This document shows positions 2,518-19,860 of a DNA stretch of 21,966 nt, piece by piece (positions within the stretch are counted from its first letter, which is position 1; the number at the start of each line of letters is the position of its first letter). A model generated the notes under the pieces. That model made no database searches. It was not told where the DNA came from and saw nothing but the letters and a program-made list of their open reading frames with translations. The stretch is from contig JAAYXG010000288.1 in the NCBI GenBank assembly GCA_012516015.1, forward strand, positions 1-21,966. Reading direction: 5' to 3'. Source of the stretch: Lysobacteraceae bacterium (GTDB lineage: Bacteria > Pseudomonadota > Gammaproteobacteria > Steroidobacterales > Steroidobacteraceae). A program made the translations under genes and the position numbers.

Positions 2518-2588
2518 GTTGCTAGCGGTCGTTGATGGTCAGAAGGATGGTTTTCTTGCCGTCAACTGCCAACCGTCAACTGTCAACC
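2518..2588. repeat. Heptamer-repeat element A (one complete arm)
   Basis: A GTTGCTAGCGG box (2518-2528) is followed by GGTCAGAAGG (2537-2546), then TCTTGCC (2554-2560) and four 7-bp units GTCAACT, GCCAACC, GTCAACT, GTCAACC (2561-2588). The left arm appears decayed. The heptamers and the TCTTGCC junction match the element at 8164-8268. Confidence 0.75.
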
Positions 2589-2610
2589 CGCGCAGCAAGC
2601 GCCTCTTCGG

Positions 2611-2639
2611 CATTGTAAATGACACCGGTTTCCTATAAA
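2611..2639 (+). promoter_or_regulatory. Promoter with overlapping LacI-type operator for the hydratase/TRAP operon
   Basis: The motif ATGACACCGGTTTCC (2619-2633) has a perfect ACCGGT core and the left half TGACACC. It is followed at once by TATAAA (2634-2639), a good -10 element. A -35-like TTGTAA (2613-2618, 15-bp spacer) or CATTGT (2611-2616, 17-bp spacer) precedes it, so the motif fills the promoter spacer, the place expected for a repressor site. Nearly the same motif recurs before kduI at 11213-11227. That this is a binding site is inference. Confidence 0.55.
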
Positions 2640-2706
2640 AAGCCTAACGCCGATCGCACGCCGGTCGCGACGCATGTTCACGTGAAATTCCGGGGGAAAT
2701 TCAGGC

Positions 2707-3534
2707 ATGTCAGTTAGCGATGCGGGTCGCCAGCCCGCAACGAACGTTGCAGAGATCGCGGAGCGTTTCGTCCATGCACGACTGCATGGCCAAGCACTGC
2801 GCGAATATCCAGGTACCGTGCCCGCAACGCTCGCGGAGGCATACCAATGCCAGGAGCTTGCGATTTCGCGTTGGCCCGAACGCCTTGCAGGCTGGAAGGT
2901 TGCGCGGGTTCCCGAGGCGTTCAAAGCGCGGTATCCCGAAGAGCGCCTGATCGGTCCCGCCTTCGCAAACAACATTCATGCTGCGCTATCGGGCGAAGTC
3001 ATCGAGTGTCCGGTATTCGAGGGCGGCTTCGCGGCGGTCGAAGCCGAGCTCGTGATCCGCATAGCCGTCGATCCGCCGCAGCGCGCCGAGTGGACGCTCG
3101 ATGAAGTCGCGGACTATGTCGGCTCGCTTCATATCGGCGTAGAGGTGGCAAGCAGTCCGCTCGCGACGCTCAACGATCTCGGCCCGGGCGCCGTCATCTC
3201 CGATTTCGGCAACAACTGGGGCGTGATCGTCGGGCCCGAGATCGAGAACTGGCGGTCGCTCGAAGAGATCGGTGCGCAAACGTTCGTGGACGGCGAGCTC
3301 GTGGGGCACGGCGTCGCGTTCACGCGCCAAGGCGCGCTCGGCGCGCTCGCCTTCACGCTCATGAAATGCGCGGAACGCGGCCGGCAGCTGCGCGCCGGCG
3401 ATGTCATCTCCACCGGCATGATTACGGGCGTGCACGATATACGCATCGGTCAAACCTCCCGGCACGCGTTCGGCGAGCACGGCGAGGTGCTGTGCCGGGC
3501 GATCAAGGCGCAACCGCATCCGTCGGTGCGCTGA
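2707..3534 (+). CDS. 2-keto-4-pentenoate hydratase family protein (FAH superfamily, MhpD-like)
   Basis: The 275-residue protein has the length and layout of MhpD/HpcG-type hydratases of the fumarylacetoacetate hydrolase superfamily. The metal-binding acids are visible as E112 and E114 in VEAELVIRI and E146 in IGVEVASSP; the glycine-rich LRAGDVISTGMITGVH near residues 229-243 is also typical. Known members hydrate 2-keto-4-enoates from aromatic catabolism, but no aromatic pathway gene is nearby. It is the first gene of the TRAP operon (dctP begins 3 bases after its stop), so a role on a 2-keto-3-deoxy sugar acid is plausible but inferred. The ATG at 2707 is preceded by GGGGG about 10 bases upstream. 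Confidence 0.85.
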   Translation: MSVSDAGRQPATNVAEIAERFVHARLHGQALREYPGTVPATLAEAYQCQELAISRWPERLAGWKVARVPEAFKARYPEERLIGPAFANNIHAALSGEVIECPVFEGGFAAVEAELVIRIAVDPPQRAEWTLDEVADYVGSLHIGVEVASSPLATLNDLGPGAVISDFGNNWGVIVGPEIENWRSLEEIGAQTFVDGELVGHGVAFTRQGALGALAFTLMKCAERGRQLRAGDVISTGMITGVHDIRIGQTSRHAFGEHGEVLCRAIKAQPHPSVR

Positions 3535-3537
3535 ACC

Positions 3538-4521
3538 GTGCGGACCAGTCGACGCACACTGCTGCTCGGACTCGGCGGGTTGAGCGTCGCGCAAGCGCCG
3601 CTCGCGCTGGCGCTCGGGCGCACGATGACGGCGGCAGACGTTCACGTCGCGGGTTATCCCACCGTCGAAGCGGTGCGCTGGATCAGCGCGCGCCTCGAGG
3701 AGCGCACGAACGGGCGGCTCCGCATCCGCGTCTATCACGCGGGTCAGCTTGGCCGCGAGTCGGACACGATCGATTTGACGCGCTACGGTGCGCTCGATTT
3801 CACGCGCGTGAATTTCGCGCCGCTCAACAATCCGTTTCCGCTCACACAGATCTTCTCGCTGCCGTACGTGTTCGATTCGGTCGAGCACATGCGTCGTGCG
3901 GCGGACGGCGCGCCGGGGCGCGCGGTCCTCGAGAGCTTCGATCGTCGGGGGCTCATCGGGCTCGCGATCTACGATGCCGGTACGCGGTCCTTCTACAACG
4001 TGCGGCGCGCCGTGCACGAGCCCGAAGATCTGCATGGCTTGAAGATTCGCGTGCCGCCTTCGGACATCTTCATCGAGCTCGCGCGCGCGCTCGGTGCCAA
4101 TCCGACGCCGCTTCCGTACGGCGAAGTGTACTCCGCGATGCAGACCCATCTCATCGACGGTGCCGAGAACAACTGGCGCACGTTGCACACCAGCCGCCAA
4201 TTCGAGGTCGCGCGTTTCTGGTCCGGCACGGAGCATTCTCACTCGCCGGAAGCGCTGCTCATGTCCAAGCGCACGTTCGATGCGCTGACGCCGGACGATC
4301 GCGCCCTGCTCAAGGAGACTGCGCGCGAGTCCGTGCCTTTCATGAGGGCATTGTGGGATCAAATGGAAGCGGAATCGCGGCAGCACGTGATCGACGCCGG
4401 CATCGAGATCAGCGAGATCGACATGGCCGCATTCACGCGCGCCGCACAACCGCTGCTGAAACGATATCTGCAGTCCGACGCACTTCGCTCGCTCTACGAC
4501 GACATCAAAGCGCTCGCGTAG
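3538..4521 (+). CDS. dctP: TRAP transporter solute-binding protein
   Basis: A 327-residue DctP-family periplasmic binding protein. The N-terminus has SRRTLLLGLGG, a Tat/Sec-like export signal with a hydrophobic core to about residue 26. Family features are R150 (GTRSFYN), the conserved ligand-binding arginine R171 in LKIRVPPS, the segment LPYGEVYSAMQTHLIDGAE and N211/N212. It captures a carboxylate-bearing substrate for the DctQM permease; given the uxa/uxu/kdu genes this is probably a hexuronate or oligouronide, which is inference. The GTG start lies 3 bases after the hydratase stop, so translation is probably coupled; no strong ribosome-binding site is seen. Confidence 0.92.
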   Translation: MRTSRRTLLLGLGGLSVAQAPLALALGRTMTAADVHVAGYPTVEAVRWISARLEERTNGRLRIRVYHAGQLGRESDTIDLTRYGALDFTRVNFAPLNNPFPLTQIFSLPYVFDSVEHMRRAADGAPGRAVLESFDRRGLIGLAIYDAGTRSFYNVRRAVHEPEDLHGLKIRVPPSDIFIELARALGANPTPLPYGEVYSAMQTHLIDGAENNWRTLHTSRQFEVARFWSGTEHSHSPEALLMSKRTFDALTPDDRALLKETARESVPFMRALWDQMEAESRQHVIDAGIEISEIDMAAFTRAAQPLLKRYLQSDALRSLYDDIKALA

Positions 4522-4551
4522 CGCTGCCTTTTCTTGGGGGGACTCGGTTCG

Positions 4552-5046
4552 ATGCTGAGCTCAATGAAGCGTTCGTTCGATTTCATCGATCGCGCGACCA
4601 TCGCCTTCGCGGGCGTCGGCCTCGTCGGCATGGCGATCGTTCAAGGCTGGCAAGTCTTCGCGCGCTATGTGCTCAACAATTCTCCGAGCTGGACAGAACC
4701 GCTCGCGCTGTTGTGCATGAGCACGACGATGATGTTCGGCGCGGCGACCGGGGTGCGTGCGAGCAGGCACTTCGGCTTTTACATTCTCGTCGAGTCGGCG
4801 CGGCCCGCCGCACGTAAGGTGCTACTCGCCCTGGCGCACCTCATTGCGGCGGCCATCGGCGCGATGCTCGCGCTGTGGGGTGCACAGATGGCCGCCGAAT
4901 CCTGGGACTATGCGATCGCAGGCGCATCTCTCCCGCAAGGCGTCGTCTATCTGCCGCTCTGTTTGGGCGGAGCACTCATTACGTTGTTCTCGCTGGAACG
5001 GTTGTTCCAGGGAGAAAGGGATCAGGGGGTAGGGGACAGGGGATAG
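4552..5046 (+). CDS. dctQ: TRAP transporter small permease subunit
   Basis: A 164-residue protein with four hydrophobic segments (roughly residues 15-37, 48-70, 85-107 and 127-148) and the DctQ hallmark NNSPSWTEPLALL. It pairs with the large subunit encoded downstream. I prefer the ATG at 4552, which has GGGGGG about 10 bases upstream; a TTG at 4534 in the same frame is possible. The C-terminal residues GERDQGVGDRG are encoded by a G-rich repeat arm (from about 5018) that also supplies the stop codon, so the tail is probably derived from a repeat rather than conserved. The 100-base gap to dctM is filled by that repeat element. Confidence 0.9.
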   Translation: MLSSMKRSFDFIDRATIAFAGVGLVGMAIVQGWQVFARYVLNNSPSWTEPLALLCMSTTMMFGAATGVRASRHFGFYILVESARPAARKVLLALAHLIAAAIGAMLALWGAQMAAESWDYAIAGASLPQGVVYLPLCLGGALITLFSLERLFQGERDQGVGDRG

Positions 5047-5139
5047 TCAGAGTTGCTAGCGGCGCCTGACTACAGTCGACAGTCACAGTTTACAGCCAGA
5101 GCCCAGAGCCCAGAGCCCAGAGCCCAGAGCCCAGAGCCT
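5018..5139. repeat. Heptamer-repeat element C (compound), between dctQ and dctM
   Basis: A G-rich arm (5018-5046) ends in GTCAGAG, then come GTTGCTAGCGG (5052-5062), a degenerate series of ACAGTCR-like 7-mers (about 5070-5095) and six tandem 7-bp units, five AGAGCCC and a last AGAGCCT (5098-5139). It begins inside the dctQ coding sequence and stops 7 bases before the dctM start. No Shine-Dalgarno sequence remains just before dctM. Confidence 0.8.
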
Positions 5140-5146
5140 AAGAACG

Positions 5147-6433
5147 ATGTCCATCGCCATTCTCTTCGGTGTTCTTGCGATCTTGCTCATCATCGGTGTG
5201 CCGGTCGGGTTCGCGCTGATCGCCGCTTCGCTCGCGACGGTGCTTTATCTCGATCTGCCCGCGATCGTCGTCGTGCAGCAGACGGCGGCAGGCGCCAACG
5301 CCGCGTCGCTGATCGCGATTCCGCTCTTCATCTTCGCGGGCGAGTTGATGATGCGGGGCGGCATCTCGGAGCGCTTGATCTCGTTCGCCTCGTCCGTCGT
5401 CGGACATTTGCGCGGTGGACTCGGTCAAGTGAACGTGCTCGCGTCTTTGTTCTTCGGCGGCGTGTCGGGCTCCGCAATCGCGGATGTCTCCGCGATCGGC
5501 GGCACGATGATTCCGCAGATGGTCAAGCGCGGCTTCGATCGCGACTTTGCGGTCAACGTCTCGATCAGTGCGGCGCTCGTCGCGCTCCTCGTGCCGCCCT
5601 CGCACAACTTGATTCTCTACTCTGCATCCGCGGGCGGCTCGATCTCGATCGCCGATCTGTTTGCGGCGGGCATTCTGCCGGCACTGTTGATGACGTTCGC
5701 GGTCGGGTTCACGAGCTGGTTCATCGCGAAACGCCGCGGGTACGCCACGGAGGCGTTTCCCGGTCTGCGCGCGGTGTTGACGCGATTCGTCGCGTCGCTG
5801 CCCGGTCTATTGCTGGTAGCGCTCATCTTCATCGGAATTCGTGCGGGCATCTTCACCGCGGTCGAGAGCGCCGCGATCGCAGTCTTCTATGCGCTGCTCG
5901 TGACGAGCCTCATCTATCGCAGGCTTACGCGCGAGCACTTCATCGCGACGTGCATGGGCGCGGTCCGCACGACGGGGCTCATCCTATTCGTGATCGGCGC
6001 GGCCGCATCGTTCGGGTGGCTGCTCGCCTATCTGCAAGTGCCCGCGGCAGCGGTCGAAGCGCTCACTGCGATCGCAGACAGTAAGTATGCGATTCTCGCG
6101 CTGCTCGTCATCGTGCTCCTGATTCTCGGCACGTTCATGGATCTTGCGCCGCTGATCATCATCTGCACGCCGATCTTCCTGCCGGTTGCGAAAGCGTTCG
6201 GCGTCGATCCCGTGCACTTCGGCGTGATCTTGATCCTGAATGCGGGCATCGGCCTCATCACGCCGCCGGTCGGCTCTGTGCTGTTCGTCGGCACCGCGAT
6301 CGGACAGATCAGCGTGACGCAGGCATTGCGAACGATCTGGCCGTTCTACTTCGCCGCGCTCACCGTGCTGCTGATCGTCGTCTATGTGCCGCAGCTCTCG
6401 CTATGGCTGCCTGCGTTGCTCAGAGCGGGCTAA
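5147..6433 (+). CDS. dctM: TRAP transporter large permease subunit
   Basis: The 428-residue, very hydrophobic protein matches DctM in length and motifs: an N-terminal LLIIGVPVGFALI segment, FFGGVSGSAIADVSAIG, the LVPPSHNLILYS loop, and near the C-terminus LDLAP-type FMDLAPLIIICTPIFLP and GLITPPVGSVLFV. It forms the sodium-driven channel through which the solute captured by DctP enters the cytoplasm. It is the last gene of the operon. The upstream 100 bases are a repeat element, and no clear ribosome-binding site is seen, which may lower its translation relative to dctQ. Downstream a nested inverted repeat separates it from the convergent reductase gene. Confidence 0.94.
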   Translation: MSIAILFGVLAILLIIGVPVGFALIAASLATVLYLDLPAIVVVQQTAAGANAASLIAIPLFIFAGELMMRGGISERLISFASSVVGHLRGGLGQVNVLASLFFGGVSGSAIADVSAIGGTMIPQMVKRGFDRDFAVNVSISAALVALLVPPSHNLILYSASAGGSISIADLFAAGILPALLMTFAVGFTSWFIAKRRGYATEAFPGLRAVLTRFVASLPGLLLVALIFIGIRAGIFTAVESAAIAVFYALLVTSLIYRRLTREHFIATCMGAVRTTGLILFVIGAAASFGWLLAYLQVPAAAVEALTAIADSKYAILALLVIVLLILGTFMDLAPLIIICTPIFLPVAKAFGVDPVHFGVILILNAGIGLITPPVGSVLFVGTAIGQISVTQALRTIWPFYFAALTVLLIVVYVPQLSLWLPALLRAG

Positions 6434-6450
6434 AGACAAAGGGATACTCT

Positions 6451-6669
6451 CGCCAAGCACGCCAAGCTCGCAAAGGTTGGAATAGGATTTATCTAAAATG
6501 CTCGATGCCTGCCGCGTCGGGCTGCGTGCCCGCTCGAACGTCTGATAAAGAGATACGCTCGCAGAGACGCAGAGATAAGAAGGGAAAAACTTTTCTTCTC
6601 CCTCTTACCTCCGCGTCTCCGCGCGATAATCTTCTTGTTCTTACCTTTGCGAGCTTGGCGTGCTTGGCG
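6451..6669. repeat. Nested inverted repeat between convergent dctM and uxuB
   Basis: The outer arms 6451-6476 and 6644-6669 are perfect 26-bp reverse complements built from degenerate 9-bp units (CGCCAAGCA, CGCCAAGCT, CGCAAAGGT). Inside them a second, imperfect inverted repeat (about 6556-6637) is built on 8-bp CGCAGAGA units, with an apex near AAAAACTTTT. The outer arms stop 17 bases after the dctM stop and 13 bases before the uxuB stop. It could terminate transcription from both sides. Similar CGCAGAGA and CGCCAAG intergenic repeats occur in many environmental bacteria (from memory). Confidence 0.85.
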
Positions 6670-6682
6670 GGAGGTTCTTCTC

Positions 6683-8149
6683 CTAGCCTCCAAGCGCCGC
6701 GGCGAGATCATCAGGGTTCTGCACTGCGGCCAAGCGCTCGTACGCGCGCATGAGCGCGCTCTTGACTCGATCGTTGTTCGTGAGCGGCGCGGGCCAGAAG
6801 CGGGGCAGGGACAGGAACGTGTCGACGTCCTGCTTCGCATCGCCCGTGCAACGTCGTCCAAGCTCGCTCAACGTATCCGCCATCGGGTCCGTGATCGCTT
6901 CGCCCTTCGCCGCCTTGCGGCGTATGAAGTGGAACCAGGCGGCGATCGGCACACACATGCGGTCGATCGGGCGGCCTGCGGCGAGCGCTTCGACCATGGT
7001 GTTCAGAATGCGGAACGGCAGCTTCTGCGAGCCGTCCCATGCAATTTGCGCGAGCAAGTGGCGTATTGCGGGATTGCGAAAGCGTTCGAGCACCGCGTCG
7101 ATGTAGCGACCGAGATCGAGTCCCTGCGTCTCGTGCAGGCTCGCGCGGAAGTCTTCGCGCATCAGCGTCTGCACGAAGCGATCGAGATCCGGATGGTCGA
7201 TCGCCTCATAGACCGTTTCGAGTCCCGCAAGCGATCCGACGTAAGCGAGCGTGGAGTGCGCCCCGTTCAGCAAGCGCAGCTTCGCGCGTTCGAATCCCGC
7301 CACGTCGTTCGTCACCGTGACGCCAACGGACGCCCAGTCGGGCGTGGGACCACGCAGCGTGTCTTCGATCACCCACTGGCAGAACGCCTCGCGCTGAATG
7401 GGCCAGCGATCTTCGACGCCCAACGCCTCGGCCACGCGCGCGCGCAGCGCATCGTCCGTAGCGGGCGTGATGCTGTCCACCATCGAGCACGGGAACGCGA
7501 CTTCTCGCTCGATCCACTTCGCGAGCTCGCCATCCGATTGCGCAACGAACTCGACAACCGCGCGTCGCAAGCGCTTGCCGTTGTCCGCGAGATTGTCGCA
7601 GCTCACGATGTTCGGCGGCGGCATGCCCTTGCTCCGGCGGAGCTTGAGCGCATGCGCCAGGTATCCGACGAGCGTGCGCGGAGCGTCAGGGTGGGCGAGG
7701 TCGTGTTGAATATCCGGATGGTTCGTGTCGAGCCCGCCGTCGGGGCGCAGGCAGTAGCCCTTTTCGGTGATCGTCGCGGTGATCAACTTGACCGCCGGAT
7801 CGACGAGCCGCGCGAGCACCGCGTGCGTCGACTCGCGCGCGACGAGGAGCTCGTAGATGGAGCCGATCACGCGATAGCCGGGTTCCTTGTCCAGCACCGC
7901 AATCGTGTAGAGCCCATCTTGCGGTGCGAGCGCATCGCGCACGCCCGTGCTCTGCAGCGCGACTTCGCAGATGCCCCAGCGCAGATCCGTGCGTAGCACT
8001 TCGTCCAAGTAGAACGCCTGATGCGCGCGGTGGAACGCCCCCGGACCGAAGTGCACCACGCCGAGCTGAACTTGCGATCGATCGTATGCCGGTATCTGAA
8101 TACCGCGTGTTGCCAAGGAAGGCAGGGTGCTGTTCGTGAGGCGGTCCAT
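6683..8149 (-). CDS. uxuB: Fructuronate reductase / mannitol dehydrogenase family oxidoreductase
   Basis: A 488-residue member of the long-chain mannitol dehydrogenase family, closest in recalled sequence to UxuB (D-mannonate oxidoreductase) rather than UxaB. Shared features are VHFGPGAFHRAHQA (32-45, nucleotide binding), WGICEV (58-63), the family signature FPCSMVDSITPAT (219-231) and the catalytic group K290, N295 and H298 in KLRLLNGAHS. It reversibly reduces fructuronate to mannonate with NADH in the cytoplasm. It follows the altronate dehydratase gene on the same strand, which would pair more naturally with a tagaturonate reductase, so the exact substrate is uncertain. A repeat hairpin lies between the two genes. 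Confidence 0.85.
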   Translation of the reverse strand: MDRLTNSTLPSLATRGIQIPAYDRSQVQLGVVHFGPGAFHRAHQAFYLDEVLRTDLRWGICEVALQSTGVRDALAPQDGLYTIAVLDKEPGYRVIGSIYELLVARESTHAVLARLVDPAVKLITATITEKGYCLRPDGGLDTNHPDIQHDLAHPDAPRTLVGYLAHALKLRRSKGMPPPNIVSCDNLADNGKRLRRAVVEFVAQSDGELAKWIEREVAFPCSMVDSITPATDDALRARVAEALGVEDRWPIQREAFCQWVIEDTLRGPTPDWASVGVTVTNDVAGFERAKLRLLNGAHSTLAYVGSLAGLETVYEAIDHPDLDRFVQTLMREDFRASLHETQGLDLGRYIDAVLERFRNPAIRHLLAQIAWDGSQKLPFRILNTMVEALAAGRPIDRMCVPIAAWFHFIRRKAAKGEAITDPMADTLSELGRRCTGDAKQDVDTFLSLPRFWPAPLTNNDRVKSALMRAYERLAAVQNPDDLAAALGG

Positions 8150-8163
8150 GTGAGGGGATCTTT

Positions 8164-8268
8164 AACGGTTGACAGTTGAGGGTTGACGGTTGACGGCCAG
8201 AGCGGAGGACTTTGACAGTCCAGCAGGCGACCCTCTTGCCGTCAACTGTCAACCGTCAACCGCCAACC
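8164..8268. repeat. Heptamer-repeat element B (complete hairpin), between uxaA and uxuB
   Basis: The left arm has four 7-mers (GGTTGAC, AGTTGAG, GGTTGAC, GGTTGAC; 8167-8194) ending in GGCCAGAGCGG (8195-8205). The right arm starts with TCTTGCC (8234-8240) and has GTCAACT, GTCAACC, GTCAACC, GCCAACC (8241-8268). The arms are inverted copies and can form a long hairpin with a 28-base loop. The element ends 2 bases after the uxaA stop and begins 15 bases upstream of the uxuB start, so it lies inside the likely uxaA-uxuB transcript. Confidence 0.85.
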
Positions 8269-8270
8269 TT

Positions 8271-9782
8271 CTACAGCGTCACTCCATTCTTCCAGATCGC
8301 GATCTCGCGTTCTTCGTTGATCTCGTTCTTGGCGCGCGCGCCCGACGCCGTGCGAACGATGAGCTCGATGAATTCTTCCGTGAGCGCTTGCGGATCCTTG
8401 CCGCTCAGCACTTGGCCCGCATCGAAGTCGATCCAATGCGGTTTGTTTTGCGCAAGCGGTGTGTTCGAGCTGATCTTCAGCGTCGGTGCGGGAAACCCGA
8501 GCGGCGTGCCGCGCCCGGTCGTAAACAGCACGAGCGTCGCTCCCGCTGCAACGAGCGCGGTCGAGGACACACCGTCGTTGCCGGGCGCCTCGAGGAGTGC
8601 GAGCCCCGGTGCTCGTACGCGCTCGCCGTAGCGCAGCACCTGTGTGACGAGCGCGCGCCCACCTTTCTGGACGGCGCCCAGCGATTTTTCTTCGAGCGTC
8701 GTGATGCCGCCCGCGATGTTGCCGGGCGAAGGATTCTCGTGCAGCGGCTCGCCGTTGCGCATGAAGTATTCTTTGAAGTCGTTCACCAGGCGCACGATGT
8801 CATCGAACACGCGCTCGTTCGCCGCGCGTTGCATCAAGAGCCGTTCCGCCCCGAAGATCTCCGGGATCTCCGTCAAGATCGACGTACCGCCGTTGGCCGT
8901 GACCCAATCGGTGACGCGCCCGACGAGCGGGTTCGCGCTGATGCCGCTGAAGCCGTCGGAGCCGCCGCATTTGACGCCGATGCACAGCGAGTCGATGCCG
9001 CACGGTTCGCGCCGATCCTGTTCGGCAATGCGCACGAGCTCTTCGACCGCGCGCAGACCCGCCTCGGTCTCATCGCTCTCGGCCTGTGCCGCGAACGCAC
9101 GCACGCGCGCGCGGTCCGCGTCCGGCAGATCGGCGAGCAGCGGGTCGAGCTGATTCGATTCGCAGCCGAGACCCACGATCAGCACGCCGCCCGCATTCGG
9201 ATGTTGAGCGAGCGATGCGATCAAGCGGCGCGTGCGGTCGAGATCGCCGCCGAGCTGTGAGCAGCCGAACTGATGCGGGAACGCATGAACGCCATCCACG
9301 CGCTCGGCGAAACGCGTTGACGTCAAGCGCGCGATGCGCTCGGCGGTTCGGCCGACGCAACCGACCGTGCACAGGATCCAAATCTCGTTGCGCGTGCCGA
9401 CGCGGCCATTCGCGCGACGATAGCCCATGAACGTCGGCTGCCCGCGTGCGAGGTCGGAAGGCGCGCTCGGCGCGAGCGGCTCGAAGCGGTAGCTGTCGAG
9501 ACCGGCGAGCAGCGTTTGTACGTTGTGCGTGTGGACGTGCGCCCCGACGGGGATATCGGCCGTCGCGCGCCCGATCGGCCAGCCGTAGCGGCGCACGGGC
9601 TCGCCAACGCGGATGTTGCGAATGGCCAGCTTGTGACCGCGGGCGATCGGATCGAGCAGGGCGATCGTGGCGGAGCCGATCTCCACTTCCTCGCCCCGCG
9701 GCAAGTCGCGGAGCGCGACCGCGACGTCGTCGTCGGGCGCAATGCGCAAGGCAGTTGGCGGGGCGTCGAGGGTGGCGGACAT
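8271..9782 (-). CDS. uxaA: Altronate dehydratase
   Basis: A 503-residue protein with the full UxaA layout. The N-terminal SAF domain (about 11-92) has RGHKLAIRNI and AHVHTHNVQT. A linker FMGYRRANGRVGTRN (118-132) follows, then the large dehydratase domain with FPHQFGCSQ, VGLGCESNQ and KCGGSDGFSG. It converts altronate to KDG in the galacturonate branch. I chose the ATG at 9782, whose product is close to the usual length (about 495) and begins just before the SAF domain; a TTG at 9836 gives an 18-residue extension without support. It is divergent from the LacI regulator and precedes the uxuB-type reductase on the same strand. Confidence 0.94.
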   Translation of the reverse strand: MSATLDAPPTALRIAPDDDVAVALRDLPRGEEVEIGSATIALLDPIARGHKLAIRNIRVGEPVRRYGWPIGRATADIPVGAHVHTHNVQTLLAGLDSYRFEPLAPSAPSDLARGQPTFMGYRRANGRVGTRNEIWILCTVGCVGRTAERIARLTSTRFAERVDGVHAFPHQFGCSQLGGDLDRTRRLIASLAQHPNAGGVLIVGLGCESNQLDPLLADLPDADRARVRAFAAQAESDETEAGLRAVEELVRIAEQDRREPCGIDSLCIGVKCGGSDGFSGISANPLVGRVTDWVTANGGTSILTEIPEIFGAERLLMQRAANERVFDDIVRLVNDFKEYFMRNGEPLHENPSPGNIAGGITTLEEKSLGAVQKGGRALVTQVLRYGERVRAPGLALLEAPGNDGVSSTALVAAGATLVLFTTGRGTPLGFPAPTLKISSNTPLAQNKPHWIDFDAGQVLSGKDPQALTEEFIELIVRTASGARAKNEINEEREIAIWKNGVTL

Positions 9783-9978
9783 GGAGCGGCCTGGAGCGAA
9801 TGGAAAAAGGCGTCGACCGAGCGGTCGGCGATCCAAAGCGCCTCATGATAAGCCTTGTGCACCCCGTCGGCAGCGTTCCGGGTGAAGTAGACCCTGCAAG
9901 CGCTGCAAAAGGCGTTGTATGCTCGGAGCACAAGAAAATCATCAGACGGCGCAGGATGCGCCTTGACCGGCGGATAGC
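9783..9978. promoter_or_regulatory. Divergent uxaA-lacI control region
   Basis: This 196-bp gap must hold the start signals of both uxaA and the regulator gene. Candidate sites are TGCAAGCGCTGCAA (9895-9908), which has a perfect AGCGCT core but unequal flanks and looks like a LacI-type operator lacking one base, and the 9-bp palindrome GCTCGGAGC (9921-9929). A GACCGAGCGGTC sequence lies near 9816. The ATGACACCGGTT motif seen at the other two promoters is not present here. Confidence 0.35.
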
Positions 9979-11097: not shown

Positions 11098-11291
11098 GTC
11101 GGCGCGCTCGCGCGGCGCTCGTCCGCCGCGAACACTGCCTCGCCAGCCTCTCCAGGCTTGAAAGCCCCTCGGCAGACCCGAGGTAAAGCCGTTCACGGGC
11201 TTGGCGATCGGCATGACACCGGTTACCATGCCCCCGGTTTCAACGCAGCCGCATGGCTGCCCGTCGCAGATTCCTGTGTGGGGGGCTCGAA
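11098..11291 (+). promoter_or_regulatory. kduI upstream region with shared operator motif
   Basis: A GGCTT-GA-AAGCC stem (near 11154-11165) and CCTCGG/CCGAGG hairpin (11167-11183) follow the lacI stop and may end its transcript, though no T run follows. A possible -35 TTGGCG (11201-11206) and -10 TACCAT (11224-11229) are 17 bp apart, and ATGACACCGGTTACCAT (11213-11229) covers the spacer and -10. Thirteen or more of the first 15 bases match the motif at 2619-2633. Binding by a LacI-type repressor is inferred. Confidence 0.5.
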
Positions 11292-12137: not shown

Positions 12138-12149
12138 CAAGAAGCGTTC

Positions 12150-12914: not shown

Positions 12915-13168
12915 AGGCCCCACGCACCGATTGTCGACCCCTCACCCTAACCCTCTCCCGCAAGGGGAGAGGGGGCGGCCTCCTAGTCACTTCCTCCGGG
13001 GCGGAACGCCGCGCCCCGCACTCGTCGTTCAGGCATTTCCTTAAACCTCCTCTCCCGCGCTGCGCAACACAGTTTCCGCGCGCCTACTGACGCAAGCTCC
13101 CGGCTCGGCGTCGCCACGCCTGGAATATGTCACTCAGTCGAACCGTTAGGAACCTGCGCTAGACCCTG
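12915..13168. other. Gap after kduD, with terminator-like repeat
   Basis: The 254 bases contain the C-rich/G-rich hairpin at 12951-12973 and no credible gene. Upstream of the kinase gene is a direct repeat GAACC-GTTAG-GAACC (about 13139-13153). The only purine-rich sequence before the kinase start is AGGAACC, some 15 bases away, so its ribosome-binding site is weak. Confidence 0.6.
12951..12973. terminator. CCCTCTCCC-GCAA hairpin repeat
   Basis: CCCTCTCCC (12951-12959) pairs perfectly with GGGAGAGGG (12965-12973) across a short GCAAG loop. It is preceded by CCCTCACCCTAA, a sequence common in intergenic repeats of many proteobacteria. Its place 36 bases after the kduD stop fits transcription termination, though no T run follows. 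Confidence 0.6.
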
Positions 13169-15877
13169 ATGGGCGCGAAAGCGATCACCGAAGCCCTTCC
13201 CGATGCGGCTGTCGTGCTCGACAGCTTTGCGCATGGCGTCGCGGTGCTCGATGCGGGCGCGCTCACCCCTCGGCTCAAGCACGCGAACAAGGAGCTCGTT
13301 CGCATGACCGGGTACTCGGTCGAGGAGCTGCGCGCAAAGCCGCTGTGGCAGCTGCTCGCGGGGCCGGACAGCGATCAGCTCGTACAGCAACAAGTGCGTA
13401 ATGCGTTCTCCGGATCGCACGTGCCCGCGTTGCAGTGGCTCGTCTATCGAAAGGATCGCACGCCCTTCTGGGCGCGCATCACCGCGCGCGGTGCACAGGG
13501 CGAGGCCACATTCGTCGTCACCGTCGAGGACGTGACCGAGTACAAGCGCGTACGCGAATCGTTGCGGGCGAGCGAAGGCCGCCTCGCAATCGCAACCGCA
13601 GCCAACGGCGCGTCGATGTGGGACTGGAACATTCCGCGCGACGAGATCTACTACAACGAGCACTGGCGCGAAGCGCTCGAGATCGAACCCGAACGGCTTC
13701 TCGAGCGAAAAGAGTTGCACGAACGCTTGTTGCTGCCGGGCGATCGCCCGGAAGTGTTGCAGCAGTTCGAAGATCACTATCACGGCCGTACTCCCCATTT
13801 CTCGAGCGAGTATCCCCTCGCTACGGCCCGCGGTACCCGCAAATGGTTCGAGGCCTATGCGAAGGTCGTCAGTCGCGACGCCGAAGGACGGCCGCTACGA
13901 ATGATCGGCGTGCTGAACGATGTATCGAGCAAGCGCAAAGCCGTGCAAGACGTGACCGCCGTGCAAGAGCGCTGGGAGCGTGCGGTTCGCGGTACGTCCG
14001 ATGGCCTCTACGATTGGGACCTGCTCACCGGACACGTTTGGTACGCGGCGCGCTTTCGCCAGATCGTCGGCTACGATGAAGCCGACTTTCCGGACATGTT
14101 CGCCTCGTTCCAGAACGCACTGCACCCCGACGATCGCGCGCTCGTCTTGAGCAAGATCCGCGCGCACCTCGAGAATCAGGCGAAGCTCGACGTGCGCTGT
14201 CGCGTGAATACGCGCACCGGCGCGACGATCTGGTGCCGCTTGCGCGGCGAGGCCGCGCGCGATGCGGCCGGCCGGCCGCTGCGCTTGTCCGGCTCGATCA
14301 GCGATATCAGCGCGCAAATCGAGGCGGAAGAAGCGCTCAATCGCAGCCAGGACTTCTACGGCACGATCCTCGATTCCTTGCCGCTCTTCATTGCCTACGT
14401 CGATCGCGATGAGCGCATCGTCTATGCCAACCGCAACTTCCAAGAGTTCTTTGCGGTGCCGCTTGCGAGCAGCAGAGGCCGCGTCATCAACGATGTCATC
14501 GGCGATCGACGGTATGGCGCGATCGGCCCGTTCGTACGCAAAGCGTTCCTGGGCAAGGCGACGGAAGGGCAAGGCCGATTCCGTGCGCATTCCGGACGGG
14601 TGCTCGATCTCGACGGATTGTTCTTGCCGCACTACGACGAGCACGGCGAGCTGCAAGGTTGCATCGTCGCGGCACGCGACATGACCGACAAGCGCCAGCT
14701 CGAGGCCGAGCTGCGCCAAAGCCAGAAGATGGAGGCGGTCGGCCGGCTCACGGGCGGCATCGCGCACGACTTCAACAATCTCCTATCGGTCATCGTCGGC
14801 AACATGCAGCTGCTCGCTAGATCGCTGCGCGAGAGCCCGCGTCTGCTGCGGCAAGCAGAAACGGCCCTGAGCGCCGCGATGCGCGGCGCGGCGCTGACGC
14901 AGCGCTTGCTCGGATTCGCGCGACAACAAGTCCTCGAACCGAAAGTCGTCGACTTGAACGGCATGATCTGCGATATGTACGAGCTGCTGCGACGCACGCT
15001 CACGGGCGACATCGAGATCGAGCGGCAGCTCGAACCGGAGCTTTGGGCGACGCGCGCGGATCCGGGACAGCTGGAGAACAGCGTGCTCAATCTCGTCATC
15101 AACGCGCGCGATGCGATGCCCCACGGCGGCACGATCACGATCACCACCCGCAACGTCACCGTGGGGGCGAGCCGCGGCCCGCGCGACGAAGGCATCGAGC
15201 CCGGCGATTATGCCGTCGTCGAAATCAAAGACACCGGTACCGGAATGTCGGCTCAAGTGCTGAAGCGGGTCTTCGAACCGTTCTTCACGACCAAGGACGT
15301 CGGCAAAGGCAGCGGGCTCGGCCTGTCCATGGTGTATGGCTTCGTCAAACAGTCGGGCGGGCACGTCTCCGTCACGAGCGCGCTCAATCAGGGAACGACC
15401 GTGCACATGTACTTCCCGCGCGTGCACGCCTCGCTCGCCCGTGCGACGGTCGATGCAAGCAGTCCGCTCGATTTGCCGCGAGGCGAGGAGCTCATCCTCG
15501 TCGTCGAAGACAACGCGGAAGTTCGCCGCACGGCCGTCGATATCCTGAGCACGCTCGGCTATCGGGTGCTCGAGGCGTCGAACGGGCACCACGCGCTCCA
15601 GCAATTCGCGCAGCATCCTGACATTGCGCTCGTGTTCTCCGATGTCATGCTGCCGGGAGGCATGCTCGGCTCGCAGCTCGTGAGCAAGCTTCGCGAACAG
15701 CGCCCCGACGTACGCATACTGATGACATCCGGATTCAGCGAAAGCGGCATCATGAATCGCGGCGTGCTCGACGGTACGATCGAGCTGCTGCAGAAGCCGT
15801 ATAAAGTGGAAGAGTTGGCGCGGCGCGTACGCGCCCTATTGGACGGAAAAGAGGAGTCCCACTGTGTCCCGGCCTGA
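13169..15877 (+). CDS. Hybrid sensor histidine kinase with four PAS domains and a receiver
   Basis: A 902-residue soluble sensor; no membrane segment is apparent. Four PAS/PAC modules fill about 10-130, 140-255, 265-385 and 393-505. The HisKA dimerisation domain has H533 in GRLTGGIAHDFNNLL. The ATPase domain has the N box (NLVINARDAM, near 640), DTGTGMS (near 689) and GSGLGLSMVYG (near 715). A C-terminal receiver starts at LILVVEDNAEVRR (about 775), with acceptor D825 in FSDVMLPGG. It should autophosphorylate H533 and pass phosphate to its own receiver and perhaps on to partners. The signal is unknown. The next gene, a receiver-EAL protein, overlaps its end by 14 bases, so the two are likely one output pathway. 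Confidence 0.95.
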   Translation: MGAKAITEALPDAAVVLDSFAHGVAVLDAGALTPRLKHANKELVRMTGYSVEELRAKPLWQLLAGPDSDQLVQQQVRNAFSGSHVPALQWLVYRKDRTPFWARITARGAQGEATFVVTVEDVTEYKRVRESLRASEGRLAIATAANGASMWDWNIPRDEIYYNEHWREALEIEPERLLERKELHERLLLPGDRPEVLQQFEDHYHGRTPHFSSEYPLATARGTRKWFEAYAKVVSRDAEGRPLRMIGVLNDVSSKRKAVQDVTAVQERWERAVRGTSDGLYDWDLLTGHVWYAARFRQIVGYDEADFPDMFASFQNALHPDDRALVLSKIRAHLENQAKLDVRCRVNTRTGATIWCRLRGEAARDAAGRPLRLSGSISDISAQIEAEEALNRSQDFYGTILDSLPLFIAYVDRDERIVYANRNFQEFFAVPLASSRGRVINDVIGDRRYGAIGPFVRKAFLGKATEGQGRFRAHSGRVLDLDGLFLPHYDEHGELQGCIVAARDMTDKRQLEAELRQSQKMEAVGRLTGGIAHDFNNLLSVIVGNMQLLARSLRESPRLLRQAETALSAAMRGAALTQRLLGFARQQVLEPKVVDLNGMICDMYELLRRTLTGDIEIERQLEPELWATRADPGQLENSVLNLVINARDAMPHGGTITITTRNVTVGASRGPRDEGIEPGDYAVVEIKDTGTGMSAQVLKRVFEPFFTTKDVGKGSGLGLSMVYGFVKQSGGHVSVTSALNQGTTVHMYFPRVHASLARATVDASSPLDLPRGEELILVVEDNAEVRRTAVDILSTLGYRVLEASNGHHALQQFAQHPDIALVFSDVMLPGGMLGSQLVSKLREQRPDVRILMTSGFSESGIMNRGVLDGTIELLQKPYKVEELARRVRALLDGKEESHCVPA

Positions 15878-17066
15878 AAGGAACCTACTGCTTGCGGTCG
15901 ATGATGAAGTCGATTTTCTCGAGCTCATCGAACAGATCGGCGAAGGCGTCGGCTGCGAAGTCATCACTGCAGATAGTGCCGCTCGGTTCCGCGAGCAGCT
16001 CGCGGCGCGTCAGCCGTCCCTCATCCTGCTCGACCTGCAGATGCCCGGCATGGACGGCATCGAGGCGCTGCGCTATCTCGCGCGCCAAGGCGTAACGGCG
16101 GGCGTGCTGCTCGCAAGCGGGATGGACCAGCGCGTCCTCGCGAGCGCACGGCAGCTCGGCGATTCGTTGGGTTTGAGAATGTTGGGCACGCTGCAGAAGC
16201 CGGCGATGCTCGAAGACATCGAGAGCTTGCTCATGACGCATCTCGGTCCCGGCGCGCGCATCTCCGCGGAGGACCTGCAGCGCGCGATCGAAGAACACGA
16301 GCTGATCGTGCACTACCAGCCGAAGGTCGTTCGGTGCACGAACGACTGGCAAGTGCGCAGCGCCGAGGCGCTCGTACGTTGGCGCCATCCGAGCCTCGGC
16401 TTGCTTTATCCGGGCGAGTTCCTGACGCTCGCGGAACAATCGGGTCTCATCGTCGGCATCACGGATTTCGTGATGACGGATGCGATTCGACAGATCGGCC
16501 ATTGGCGTCAGCGCGGGCTCGATCTTTCGGTCGCGGTGAATCTCTCGCCGCGGCTCGTACAGGATCTCGAGTTCCCGGATCGGCTGAACCGGGTCTTCCG
16601 CGAGTTCGAGGTGACGCCCGAACAACTGACGCTCGAGGTCACCGAAGCCGCATCGCTCGACGATCCGGATCTCGTTATGGACATCTTCACGCGCCTGCGC
16701 GTGAGAGGCGTCGGCTTAGCGCTCGACGATTTCGGTACCGGGATGTCGTCTTTGACGCAGCTCTACAAGATGCCCTTCAACGAAGTGAAGATCGACGGGA
16801 CGCTGATCGCGGACATCGCGACGAGCAAGGCCGCAGCCACCGTCGTTCGTGCCATCACGGAGCTCGCGCACAATCTTTCGCTGACCGCGTGTGCCGAAGG
16901 CGTAGAGACGCCGGCGCAATTCGAATTCCTGGATCAGGTCGGCTGCGATGCGCTGCAAGGCGACTTCATCGCCTCGCCGATGCCGGCGTCGGAGATGGAG
17001 AACTTCATCCACGTGTGGAACGGCTCGGATCACACCTGGGTGCCCGTCGTCAGGAATGAAGTGTGA
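15864..17066 (+). CDS. Response regulator with EAL (c-di-GMP phosphodiesterase) domain
   Basis: A 400-residue protein. The N-terminal receiver (about 7-128) has D13, D14, acceptor D57 in LLDLQMPG and K112 in LQKP. The EAL domain (about 135-385) keeps the catalytic residues: EAL at 168-170, N226, E258, D288/D289 in LDDFGTG, K309, E345 and Q365. It should therefore hydrolyse cyclic di-GMP. The GTG start at 15864 has GAGGAG 7 bases upstream and lies inside the end of the hybrid kinase gene, implying translational coupling and that the kinase probably phosphorylates D57. The last codons (GTG TGA) fall in the arm of a repeat element. Confidence 0.95.
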   Translation: MSRPERNLLLAVDDEVDFLELIEQIGEGVGCEVITADSAARFREQLAARQPSLILLDLQMPGMDGIEALRYLARQGVTAGVLLASGMDQRVLASARQLGDSLGLRMLGTLQKPAMLEDIESLLMTHLGPGARISAEDLQRAIEEHELIVHYQPKVVRCTNDWQVRSAEALVRWRHPSLGLLYPGEFLTLAEQSGLIVGITDFVMTDAIRQIGHWRQRGLDLSVAVNLSPRLVQDLEFPDRLNRVFREFEVTPEQLTLEVTEAASLDDPDLVMDIFTRLRVRGVGLALDDFGTGMSSLTQLYKMPFNEVKIDGTLIADIATSKAAATVVRAITELAHNLSLTACAEGVETPAQFEFLDQVGCDALQGDFIASPMPASEMENFIHVWNGSDHTWVPVVRNEV

Positions 17067-17179
17067 CGTGTCCGAGAGTGTGACGTGTAAGGTGTATAAG
17101 GTGTAAGGTGTAAAGCCAGAAGCGGCAGCGGCACGCGCGGCGTGCTCTGACCCTACACGTCACACTCTACACATCACAC
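17061..17179. repeat. Heptamer-repeat element D (complete hairpin)
   Basis: The left arm (17061-17114) is built from GTGTAAG-like units and ends in GCCAGAAGCGG (17115-17125). The right arm begins with TCTGACCC (17145-17152) and carries the inverted units to 17179. The outer parts of the two arms match as inverted copies, sharing GTGTGAYGTGT and GAGTGTGACGTGTA. The left arm includes the EAL gene stop codon, and a long palindrome adjoins the right arm. Confidence 0.85.
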
Positions 17180-17215
17180 GAGAAGCGGTTAGCCGCTAGC
17201 GGCTAAGCGCTTCTC
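17180..17215. terminator. 36-bp palindrome, likely bidirectional terminator
   Basis: GAGAAGCGGTTAGCCGCT (17180-17197) and the following 18 bases are reverse complements at 17 of 18 positions, with no loop bases between them. It contains the stop and last codons (RLAASG) of the minus-strand kinase, and lies between two convergent genes. A pyrimidine-rich TTCTCTTT follows on the plus strand. Termination is inferred from position and shape. Confidence 0.65.
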
Positions 17216-18649
17216 TTTAGCTGGCTTCAGCATGTGCAGCGGAGCGGTCAGCACGACGCGCGTGCCCTGGCCGGGTTCTTCGAACGCCACGTTGCCGCCG
17301 AGCATCCGTGCGCGGTACTCCATGATCTTGAGGCCCATTCCCGGATGTCCTTGCGCAAGGCCCGCCGAGAGGCCGATGCCGTCGTCGGCAACCGTGAGCT
17401 GGAGCTTGCGATTGACCGTTTTCAGCTCGATAAAAATCGATTTGGCGCGCGCGTAACGTGCCGCATTCGTCGTCGCCTCCTGCGCCACGCGATAAATGTG
17501 CGTCGCCGCGCCTTCCTCGATTTCGGGCAGCCGCGCGGCGGCCATCTTGAACGTGCACTTGAGGTTGTACATGTCGGTGCAGCGCGCGGCGAGATGCTTG
17601 AGCGCTTCGGGCAACCCGCCACGTTCCAAGTTCACGGGTGCAAGACCGCGCGCGAGCGAGCGTGTGCTCTGGATTGCGCGCGCGAGCAAATCGCTGATCT
17701 TCGTGACTTGCGACAAGTACTGCGGCGCCTCGCGCGACAACTGCACTTCGAGGCCTTTCAATAAGAGCGAGAGCCCCGTGAGCTCTTGCCCGAGCCCATC
17801 GTGAAGATCGCTGCCGAGCCGGCGCTGCTCGCGATTGGAAATCTCGAGGATTTCTTGCTCGAGCGCCTTGCGGTCGGTGACTTCTTGGACGGCGCACACG
17901 AGCCCCGTGATCTTGTCCTGATCGCGCAATGGAACGTGGGTGAGGTTGAACCAGCGGATCGTGCCGTCGGGAGTGACCCAGTGCCGCTCTTGCCCCGAAA
18001 CGGCGCGTCCCGTGCGCATCACGGTGGCGGCCTGGGCCTCGATATCCAAGGTCGTTTCGTCGCTCCAGATCTCGGAGAGACGCTTGCCGATGATTTCTTC
18101 GCGCCGTTTGCCGGCCACCTCCAGCATCATGCGATTCACGATCGTGATGCGATTCTGGGTGTCGACGGTGTAGATGACCTCCGGCAACGTGTCCATGACG
18201 GTGCTGATGAGCAGGCGCTGCGCTTCGAGCTCGAGCTCGGCCTGGCGGCGTTCGCGGCGCTCGCGTGCTTCGAGCAGCGCACGATTTACGACGGTCGGCA
18301 GGCGCTGCAGCCGATCTTTCAGGACGTAATCGGTCGCGCCGCTCTTGAGCGCTTCGATCGCGCGTTCTTCGCCGAGCGAGCCCGATACGAAGATGAACGG
18401 CACGCCCGGGCACGACTTCTGCGTAATCTTGAGCGCGGCGAGCCCGTCGAAGCCGGGCAACGTGTAATCGGCCAACACGAGGTCGATATCGCCGTCCGTC
18501 AGCGCTTCACGGAATGCCCGCTCCGTGGCAACGTGCCGCCACTCGACCTCCAGTCCGTTTCGTGCGAGCTCGAGCTCGATGAGCTCGGCATCGTTCGGAT
18601 CGTCCTCTAGGAGTACGAAGTGCAGCGACCCGGTGGTTTCCTGACTCAT
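17189..18649 (-). CDS. Receiver-PAS-HisKA_3 histidine kinase
   Basis: A 486-residue cytosolic protein. It has an N-terminal receiver (about 10-125, acceptor D61 in LADYTLPGFDG, K111), a PAS domain (about 145-262), a HisKA_3 domain with H283 in SDLHDGLGQEL and an HATPase with N395 and ADDGIGL (421-427). The HisKA_3 type normally pairs with NarL/FixJ regulators, and one is encoded divergently at 18999. A receiver in front of the kinase suggests that phosphorylation by another kinase controls it. I chose the ATG at 18649 because the receiver begins just after it; the frame stays open to 18817. The neighbouring kinase at 20077 is a paralogue, sharing LARGLxPVNLERGGL and LHDGLGQELTG. Confidence 0.93.
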   Translation of the reverse strand: MSQETTGSLHFVLLEDDPNDAELIELELARNGLEVEWRHVATERAFREALTDGDIDLVLADYTLPGFDGLAALKITQKSCPGVPFIFVSGSLGEERAIEALKSGATDYVLKDRLQRLPTVVNRALLEARERRERRQAELELEAQRLLISTVMDTLPEVIYTVDTQNRITIVNRMMLEVAGKRREEIIGKRLSEIWSDETTLDIEAQAATVMRTGRAVSGQERHWVTPDGTIRWFNLTHVPLRDQDKITGLVCAVQEVTDRKALEQEILEISNREQRRLGSDLHDGLGQELTGLSLLLKGLEVQLSREAPQYLSQVTKISDLLARAIQSTRSLARGLAPVNLERGGLPEALKHLAARCTDMYNLKCTFKMAAARLPEIEEGAATHIYRVAQEATTNAARYARAKSIFIELKTVNRKLQLTVADDGIGLSAGLAQGHPGMGLKIMEYRARMLGGNVAFEEPGQGTRVVLTAPLHMLKPAKEKRLAASG

Positions 18650-18998
18650 ACGGAAGTAATACCAGAAGAGACCCCTGCTTTGCTGCGCGCCGTGCGAAAC
18701 GCAGCATCCCCTATCCGCGACCATTCGGTATCGTTGCGGTCGGAACCTCGACCTCCGAACGTGTGCGTCCGATCGCGCGCTCGTCGGTCGCAGGTTCCTC
18801 GAGCGACACGCTATCACTTCGGAGGTGAGTGTGGAAAATGGCGATTGCTGCGAGCTTGTGCGACCGCAAAATGCGATGTTAGAAATCTACTAGGAAATCA
18901 TGAAGGGTCTCGCGGCCCTTTTTTACACATCGCAGCGAAAGCAGACCGTTTTCGCCGCGAGACGCTACACAGGATGCTTTCTTAGGAGCGACGAGCCT
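18650..18998. other. Divergent control region with leader terminator
   Basis: The 349-base gap between two divergent signalling genes must hold both promoters. Visible are ATCCCCTA (18706-18713), a half-site that reappears as an inverted pair before the next kinase gene, and an intrinsic terminator (18903-18924) that lies 74 bases before the response regulator start. An ATG at 18900, in frame with the regulator and preceded by AGGA, could start a leader or an extended protein. Confidence 0.55.
18903..18924 (+). terminator. Intrinsic terminator in the response regulator leader
   Basis: AAGGGTC (18903-18909) can pair with GGCCCTT (18914-18920), with one T-G wobble and a 4-base loop, and six T follow from 18919. 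It points in the direction of the downstream regulator gene, so it would act either as an attenuator or as the end of a small RNA started upstream in the gap. Confidence 0.6.
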
Positions 18999-19661
18999 AT
19001 GGCAGAGCAAACACGGATCGTGATCGTAGACGACCATCCCTTCGTCCGCGAAGGATTGAAGCAGCTGCTCGCCGGGCAAGGAGACTTCGTGCTGTCCGCA
19101 GAGGCGTCCTCGGTGCAGGATGCGCAGGTGGCGATCGCCGGCGAGAAACCGGATGTCGCCGTCGTCGATCTCGCGTTGGGGGCCGATGACGGGATCGAGC
19201 TCGTACGCTGGATCCGCAACGAGCATCCCGATGTTCGCGTGCTCGTGCTCTCGATGCAGGACGAGGCCCTCTATGCCGAGCGTTTGCTGCGTCTGGGCGT
19301 GAGCGGCTACGTCATGAAGAACGTGGCCGGTACGGACTTCCTGGGCGCGCTTCGCAAGGTTGCACGAGGGCAGCGCCACGTCAGCGCGGCAATGGGCGAG
19401 CGGCTGTTGAGCCAAGTTGCGCGCGGCCGCGTCCCTGGGCAGGACGAGGACCCCGTTTCCGCGTTGACCGAGCGCGAGCTCGAGGTGTTTCGGCTGATCG
19501 GCGAGGGCATCAGCACGCGCGAGATCTCGGAACGGCTCTCGTTATCGATGAAAACGGTCGATGCTCACCGCCGTCACATGCGCGAGAAGCTGAATCTGCG
19601 CTCGACGAGCGAGCTCATTCGCTACGCGACGCAGTGGGTGGCGGATCAGGCGGCAGGCTAG
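18999..19661 (+). CDS. NarL/FixJ-type response regulator
   Basis: A 220-residue two-component regulator. The receiver (about 5-120) has D11/D12, acceptor D57 in AVVDLALG and the conserved lysine in GYVMKN. A LuxR-type helix-turn-helix follows (about 150-205, LTERELEVFRLIGEGIS and KTVDAHRRHMREKL). It should bind DNA when phosphorylated by one of the adjacent HisKA_3 kinases. I chose the ATG at 18999 because AGGAG lies 10 bases upstream and the receiver starts at once; an ATG at 18900 would add 33 residues and cross the terminator hairpin. Possible binding sites are the ATCCCCTA half-site at 18706 and the inverted pair at 19949-19972. Confidence 0.95.
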   Translation: MAEQTRIVIVDDHPFVREGLKQLLAGQGDFVLSAEASSVQDAQVAIAGEKPDVAVVDLALGADDGIELVRWIRNEHPDVRVLVLSMQDEALYAERLLRLGVSGYVMKNVAGTDFLGALRKVARGQRHVSAAMGERLLSQVARGRVPGQDEDPVSALTERELEVFRLIGEGISTREISERLSLSMKTVDAHRRHMREKLNLRSTSELIRYATQWVADQAAG

Positions 19662-19670
19662 CCTTTCCCT

Positions 19671-19860
19671 GGGCTTGGGGCTTGGGGCTTGGGGCTTGGG
19701 GCTCGGGGCTCGGGCAAGATGAAAGAAATTCTGACCTAACGTCGGTCTTTCTTACTTGTCCGGACCGATTTGCCCAAGCCTCACGGCTGGTTGCTAGCAG
19801 AGCGTCAATATGGGCCCGCTTCATTCTGGCCCGAGCCCCACGCCCCGAGCCCGAAGCCCC
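19671..19860. repeat. Heptamer-repeat element E (GGGCTTG type)
   Basis: Four GGGCTTG and two GGGCTCG units in tandem (19671-19712) end in GGCAAGA (19713-19719). The right arm begins TCTGGC (19825-19830) and continues with inverted, degenerate CGAGCCC-like units to 19860. Between them lie TTCTGACC (19729-19736) and GTTGCTAGCAG (19790-19800), boxes shared with the other elements. It begins 9 bases after the response regulator stop. Confidence 0.85.

Follow-up and report, generated by a model that had tools for sequence, protein, structure and literature searches.

The window analysed here is the whole 21,966-nt contig C194 of a metagenome-assembled genome (G000; 3.62 Mb in 844 contigs, 75.6% complete), and a scan of ten of its reading frames revealed, among others, TRAP transporter, mannitol dehydrogenase-type, altronate dehydratase-type, sensor and response regulator genes. 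Tandem heptamers occur at five loci of this window (A to E), for which the original prediction had proposed one shared architecture of heptamer hairpins. The heptad-hairpin observation is real and larger than first reported: in G000 and a relative, G012, we found dispersed elements consisting of an inverted pair of heptad arms around a spacer, and the chance that they form a non-coding, REPIN/BIME-like repeat family with modular heptad arms is about even. G000 and G012 appear to be genus mates within Steroidobacter, and in a rough four-gene tree they group together with G013 (the LuxR gene was taken in the wrong frame and the other groupings were unused).

The statistics on the arms were obtained from 174 arms of 87 paired elements in G000 and G012, taken from a catalogue of 93 entries (46 in G000, 41 in G012 and three each in G002 and G007), three of which are second entries for the same place; the arms are not independent samples because the GTTGAC class contributes a large share of the units. 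The strict box RGYMRGA closes 92 of the 174 inner ends, compared with 2.9 expected from random windows, 9 at the outer end and 2 on the opposite strand, which bears out the earlier claim that the inner arm ends share a common box. At the level of the element it closes both arms in 30 cases, one arm in 32 and none in 25. Of the 276 positions checked, 227 have the dinucleotide RG at phase 0, the other phases giving 17–100; the box is the last heptad, in register with the array and not a separate flank, and the units read R-G-N5. G occupies the second position in 296 of the 306 units of the boxed arms, and the within-arm minority fraction is 0.265 at position 1 and 0.016–0.10 at the other positions. 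Four units precede the box in 48 of the 92 boxed arms (one unit in 5, two in 9, three in 15, five in 9 and six in 6), so that the commonest arm is five heptads or 35 nt long, and no conserved base appeared across the 16 nt outside 47 four-unit arms. A separate search gave 45 box hairpins, only one of them with arms lacking the 7-nt period. Among the control patterns run against G000, RGMYRGA gave 15 matches and YRGMGRA 13, both overlapping the box or the arms and therefore not clean, while the other five gave 0–2. Outside Steroidobacter the box is not enriched, closing 4 of 66 unselected period-7 arrays of other taxa against 2.4 expected. Loci outside the genus among the matches listed (80 of 92) were discarded as evidence for the box, having been selected with a pattern that itself holds the box and with about 60 matches estimated to be due to chance.

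The two arms of an element usually belong to the same class (29 of 34 two-box elements, against 8.2 ± 2.1 when shuffled, using a looser box and including G002 and G007), and over all classes the letters at position 1 of paired arms agree in 55 of 91 cases where 42.8 are expected (p 0.003), which may be explained by class composition. The loops range from 14 to 431 nt, with a median of 66 nt, and are unrelated: among the 93 entries blastn gave six matches at E 0.01, three of them between overlapping entries of one place and three short. Whole elements fold far better than shuffled sequences (mean z -6.5 over 84), in part by construction since the elements were found through their inverted arms. 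A single arm is no palindrome in itself (mean z of -0.62, 105 arms), and the folding of the loop cores does not surpass that of the DNA next to them (mean z of -0.44 and 0.06, respectively; 56 of each; p 0.24).

Arrays were counted in 341,215 nt of G000 (the window and 46 readable contigs, 33 of which were chosen by GTTGAC matches) and in 308,969 nt of G012, in part chosen in the same way. At a score of at least 12, G000 holds 70 arrays at period 7 and 39 at period 14, and 0–3 at each of the periods 4–6, 8–13 and 15. The 13 unselected readable contigs of G000 (84,556 nt) show the same pattern, with 15 arrays at period 7, 8 at period 14, none at the other periods from 4 to 15, and nine paired elements. 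G012 has 56 arrays at period 7, 30 at period 14, 9 at period 9 and no more than 5 at any other period. The syntenic stretches, 15–30 kb each, of ten genomes of the genus (G013, G007, G001, G003, G010, G011, G006, G008, G009 and G004) contain no period-7 array that reaches a score of 12; G007 has three arrays of score at least 11 in further stretches, and the 20 kb of G002 contain five period-7 arrays that reach 12, most of which belong to a different class, GGCTACA. The pattern GTTGACNGTTGACNG matched 228 times in G000 (18 for the reversed control), 334 times in G012 (24), 23 times in G007, 0–2 times in the other genomes of the genus and not at all in 26 relatives outside it. In G004, at L161:4295-4344, a box hairpin with AGGCTAC-like arms was seen. 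At L170:4780-4930 the GTGACG class occurs as an octamer (TGACGAGG TGACGAAG TGACGGGG) together with the box GGCCAGA, and the step is therefore not strictly seven.

Composite arms, which combine non-identical heptads, bear on how the arms spread. The arm AGGGGGT-AATGAYT-AGGGGGT is present in 27 copies in G012 and one in G000 but in none of 12 other genomes of the genus, and AGCGGGT-CGTGAYT-AGCGGGT in 18 copies in G012 and none in 13 others; the reversed patterns gave no matches. One further heptad followed by the strict box is found in 20 of the 28 copies of the first arm and in 11 of the 18 of the second, and 22 and 12 copies, respectively, have an inverted partner (at least 15 of 21 bases) no more than 350 nt away, one of the 12 being doubtful. 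When the copies were aligned no base outside the arm and box reached 70%, and neither consensus contained a tag. The loops of the 22 partnered copies share one short match between different places and those of the 12 none. In the outer flanks relatedness is limited to one 19-nt match and a local duplication around L317 that L331 resembles. Since composite arms of non-identical heptads recur with unrelated loops, the arms have spread as modules and not through local slippage alone. Spread by whole-arm copying is thus well supported, and the recurrence, counted at 25 and 18 places, upholds the earlier proposal of one architecture with many heptamer classes and a spreading mechanism beyond chance slippage. 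Runs of array-box-array-box, at L043:6480-6582 and L075:3793-3865, have the appearance of an element that was inserted into a second one or arose by duplication alongside it.

The elements of the window are listed in the table below. The proposed shared architecture holds for A, C, D and E but not for locus B, where the arms are not complementary and the inverted-pair search finds none, and B was therefore rejected as a heptamer hairpin. Elements C, D and E are inverted pairs with the box at both inner ends; for element A the same search lists no pair, yet the predicted fold pairs its left and right arms. Two of the typical five-heptad arms of 35 nt are found in C and one in A. Two left arms overlap the tail of a reading frame: that of locus B (5018-5139, situated between dctQ and dctM) does so with DctQ, which stops at 5046, and that of element D with EAL, which stops at 17066.

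Heptad arms of the window, with coordinates on the 21,966-nt stretch
Feature	Position	Strand	Units, box and remarks
Element A, left arm, decayed	2518..2543	+	closing box GGTCAGA 2537-2543; from sequence and fold (-24 kcal/mol)
Element A, right arm, intact, 35 nt	2554..2588	-	minus strand 5'-3' GGTTGAC AGTTGAC GGTTGGC AGTTGAC + box GGCAAGA
Locus B, left arm	5024..5051	+	AGGGGGT AGGGGAC AGGGGAT + box AGTCAGA
Locus B, right array, other class	5096..5138	-	GGGCTCT x6, not complementary to left arm
Element C, left arm, 35 nt	8167..8201	+	GGTTGAC AGTTGAG GGTTGAC GGTTGAC + box GGCCAGA
Element C, right arm, 35 nt	8234..8268	-	minus strand GGTTGGC GGTTGAC GGTTGAC AGTTGAC + box GGCAAGA
Element D, left arm	17061..17120	+	GTGTAAG/GTGTGAC class with slips; box AGCCAGA 17114-17120
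Element D, right arm	17146..17179	-	box GGTCAGA 17146-17152
Element E, left arm	19671..19719	+	six GGGCTTG/GGGCTCG heptads + box GGCAAGA 19713-19719
Element E, right arm	19825..19860	-	box GGCCAGA 19825-19831 + four GGGCNNG-class heptads

No Rfam match at gathering score was obtained in the window. The window contains other repeats as well. At 2269-2330, beside element A, there is a GTAG-type REP (repetitive extragenic palindrome) pair (TGTAGGTCGGAATTCATTCCGAC ... GTCGGAATAAATTCCGACCTACA) which constitutes a separate family with relatives at the G000 loci L053, L056, L068 and L083. The convergent gap at 6447-6673 contains a nested palindrome of 9-nt units (CGCCAAGCA), the right arm of which ends in GGTAAGA, fitting the heptad box. 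Adjoining element D, a near-perfect 36-nt palindrome with AGCGGTTAG ends (17180-17215) overlaps the end of a minus-strand kinase gene.

With respect to the genes, elements occupy 40 of 169 tandem gaps, 11 of 71 convergent gaps and 5 of 81 divergent gaps (p 0.0012), so that divergent gaps are depleted compared with all others (5 of 81 against 51 of 240); gaps were defined by greedy calls of open reading frames (ORFs), by which 30 of the 87 elements lie in no called gap. A comparison of 21 collinear gaps between G000 contigs and G012 showed that slots are shared. By rule (array score at least 9) five are occupied in both genomes, two in G000 only, two in G012 only and 12 in neither (p 0.017), and by eye, with the question known to the scorer, eight in both, none and one in a single genome and 12 in neither (p 4e-5). 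The gap L056:12618-13027, which has weak traces in both genomes, was entered as neither. The eight slots scored by eye hold the same class once (site C, GTTGAC), a class shared in one arm twice (L056:2612 and L056:9260) and different classes five times, a difference that accordingly rests partly on scoring by eye. Site D carries GTGTAAG in G000, AGTCCGC in G012, GGCTACA in G002 and a decayed GTTGGAG-like element in G011; in G013 the site is taken up by an insertion of 1 kb that includes a short remnant resembling GGCTGTA, G006 is masked there, and no element was seen in G007, G001, G003, G010, G008, G009 or G004. At this distance between the genomes the shared slots could either be inherited or merely favoured. 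A CCCTCACCCTAACCCTCTCCCGCAAGGGGAGAGGG hairpin at 12938-12974 of the window corresponds to a slot that in G012 holds an AGTCCGC heptad element. At L170:13104-13264 one arm is GTTGAC and the other consists of about 13 GTGACGG units, the G000 slot having GTTGAC in both arms, and this is perhaps an element caught between classes.

As a member of a repeat family, the element is read as an inverted pair of arms of about 35 nt around an unrelated spacer, able to form a long hairpin. Each arm is typically composed of four R-G-N5 heptads and the closing heptad RGYMRGA in the same register, and the elements sit largely in intergenic gaps but seldom in divergent ones. Their arms may be copied in trans to new sites, probably as hairpin-forming single strands, and new copies would tend to enter or replace existing hairpins, by which a slot could outlast its heptad class; the hairpin itself would either be tolerated or serve as a structure at the 3' ends of mRNAs. 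A further idea, which we hold to be improbable, is a machinery that moves along DNA seven bases at a time, reading or writing it, with interchangeable R-G-N5 modules and a fixed closer, where a factor favours five heptads and tolerates many module sequences, and where whole genomes switch their set of modules and the slots stay. Several observations weigh against a mobile family. No insertion was observed, the best matches to the window within the genus being at about 70–80% DNA identity with no close strains, and no mobiliser was found. A strict box is missing from the 25 elements counted above, and within the GTTGAC class the two arms agree at position 1 no better than when shuffled (25 of 50 against 23.6 expected, p 0.37). 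The loops are unrelated even where the arms match over at least 21 nt, although plain copy-and-paste of whole elements predicts related loops unless loops evolve much faster than arms.

The same data were examined for what they say of local evolution, by which gene-end hairpins would be rebuilt in place through replication slippage and arm-to-arm correction, with classes arising from point mutations that spread along the arm. In-frame changes of class within an array, AGGCGAT to AGGGGAT (L167:10773) and GGATAGG to GGTTAGG (L079:4703), speak for it, as do the slots common to both species, the agreement of all-class position-1 letters above shuffles and the 244 of 249 adjacent units that differ by 0–2 bases (units more than two hexamer bases apart having been cut beforehand). 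Local evolution alone is nevertheless unlikely, as the 27 and 18 copies of the composite arms stand at separate loci whose flanks and loops are unrelated, free slippage does not predict a peak at four units, and arms of the GTTGAC class agree at position 1 no better than when shuffled. Moreover, recurring hexamers are not extra-connected by single substitutions (largest component 6, null mean 5.1), and stepwise descent of the classes is therefore not claimed. Depletion from divergent gaps and the folding of whole elements above shuffles, partly by construction as mentioned, would also suit mRNA 3'-end hairpins under selection, in which a protein that reads the sequence in 7-bp steps keeps the classes alike. 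The near-invariant G at position 2 and the little variation at positions 2–4 compared with position 1 point the same way, and 7-bp stepping has a precedent in pSM19035, where the omega protein is described, in the available part of the paper, as having sites made of 7 to 10 contiguous heptads (PMC4498918). We nevertheless assign such a function a low probability, given the position of locus B between dctQ and dctM, the several readers that coexisting classes would require, and the 27 copies of one composite arm, whose placement is not explained by selection alone.

The general layout resembles REPINs, and it was considered whether a Y1 transposase encoded in the genome (RAYT, PF01797) mobilises the arms as REPs. 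PF01797 matches were obtained in six of the 14 genomes of the genus, among them the array-bearing G012, G002 and G007, and not in G001, G003, G008, G010, G011 or G013. However, G000 gave no match (at 75.6% completeness), G004 has none yet holds a box hairpin, and G009 and G006 have PF01797 and no period-7 array of score 12 in 15–20 kb of synteny. The suggested link to a RAYT gene did not hold up, since 12 RAYT neighbourhoods of 4–9 kb contained no period-7 array of score at least 11 and only two weak ones of score 10; single arms are moreover non-palindromic, all of which makes strictly RAYT-driven REPINs quite improbable. A telomerase-like enzyme adding heptads outward from the box, with its own template for each class, would account for a box that behaves like a common start, for units that keep its register and for position 1 being the most variable. 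We consider such templated addition very improbable, as composite arms require the copying of whole arms and reverse transcriptase matches do not track the arrays. The latter result also leaves the proposed association with a reverse transcriptase unsupported: PF00078 is found in 10 of the 14 genomes, while G007 has arrays without it, and G001, G003 and G010 have it without arrays (no period-7 array of score 12 in 25–28 kb of synteny). The preferred reading is still that of a dispersed REPIN/BIME-like family with heptad arms.

Set against described systems, the elements are in our judgement REPIN-like and form a family whose arm is of a new kind, in appearance related to known heptamer repeats. 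According to the available parts of the respective papers, REPINs and GTAG/CGTC REPs likewise have short conserved arms in inverted pairs, are dispersed, have a spacer that may vary and are mostly located between unidirectional or convergent genes (PMC3116915, PMC3733652). As in a REPIN, the heptad elements are inverted doublets able to form a hairpin, and their spacer is less conserved than the arms. The arm of a REP is there a palindrome with a GTAG or CGTC tag, beside a RAYT gene (PMC3733652, PMC3116915), whereas the heptad arms have neither a palindromic unit nor such an end tag and, unlike REPs, comprise many modular classes. A miniature inverted-repeat transposable element (MITE) of a transposon is marked by a conserved whole sequence and a target site duplication, and on the first of these points the loops of the heptad elements are not conserved.

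The earlier statement that no named family resembles these elements was too wide, as heptamer arrays, including convergent pairs (GGGAATC) at gene ends, are known from Xanthomonas (PMC4692102). New here are the shared closing heptad in register, the many classes per genome and slots at which the class has changed; the open-licence literature, in the portions available, describes neither a closing heptad common to the arms, nor an arm of five heptads, nor a change of heptad class across dispersed slots. As far as the text available goes, Rehm et al. (2015) reported GGGNATC heptamer repeats of Xanthomonas and Nostoc with one class per genome, for which G-quadruplexes were proposed, described no closing heptad such as that of the Steroidobacter arms, and noted in their introduction that the over-representation of heptamers in bacteria had seen little follow-up (PMC4692102). 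The unit, searched only as GGGAATCGGGAATCGG, is absent from G000, and in G404, a genome of the same class with the GGGNATC unit, no RGYMRGA was seen at inner ends (few loci, by eye). Classes such as AGTCCGT, unlike GGGNATC, have no GG run, and the G-quadruplex was rejected as a general explanation.

Tandem heptamers lying mainly between genes, as in short tandemly repeated repetitive sequences (STRRs) or heptameric simple sequence repeats (SSRs), are found here too, with the 30 of 87 elements placed outside gaps by the crude ORF calls. STRR heptamers of cyanobacteria were reportedly presented by Mazel et al. in 1990. They resemble the heptad elements in the unit length and in having several classes per genome, and we know of no inverted pairing of STRRs with a common closing heptad. 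In Sphaerospermopsis kisseleviana NIES-73 (L268) many heptamer arrays of different classes lie densely within 8 kb, some of them changing class mid-array. Three heptanucleotides of Calothrix are mentioned in the accessible text of PMC4692102. The P6b stem of the Nostoc trnL intron is, in the part available, a hairpin site where two alternative seven-nucleotide motifs have repeatedly replaced each other, although at a single intron locus and with no dispersed family (PMC4476775), and the TAACTGA repeats of Beggiatoaceae are described as abundant intergenic heptamers, but as direct repeats of one class mostly situated just upstream of start codons (PMC4679880; available part).

The heptamers studied here are parts of a measured object, with a preferred number of units, a fixed register, a shared closing module and a free module sequence, and the slots appear to persist while the modules change. 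With such an object at hand, the question of why the unit should be seven becomes testable.

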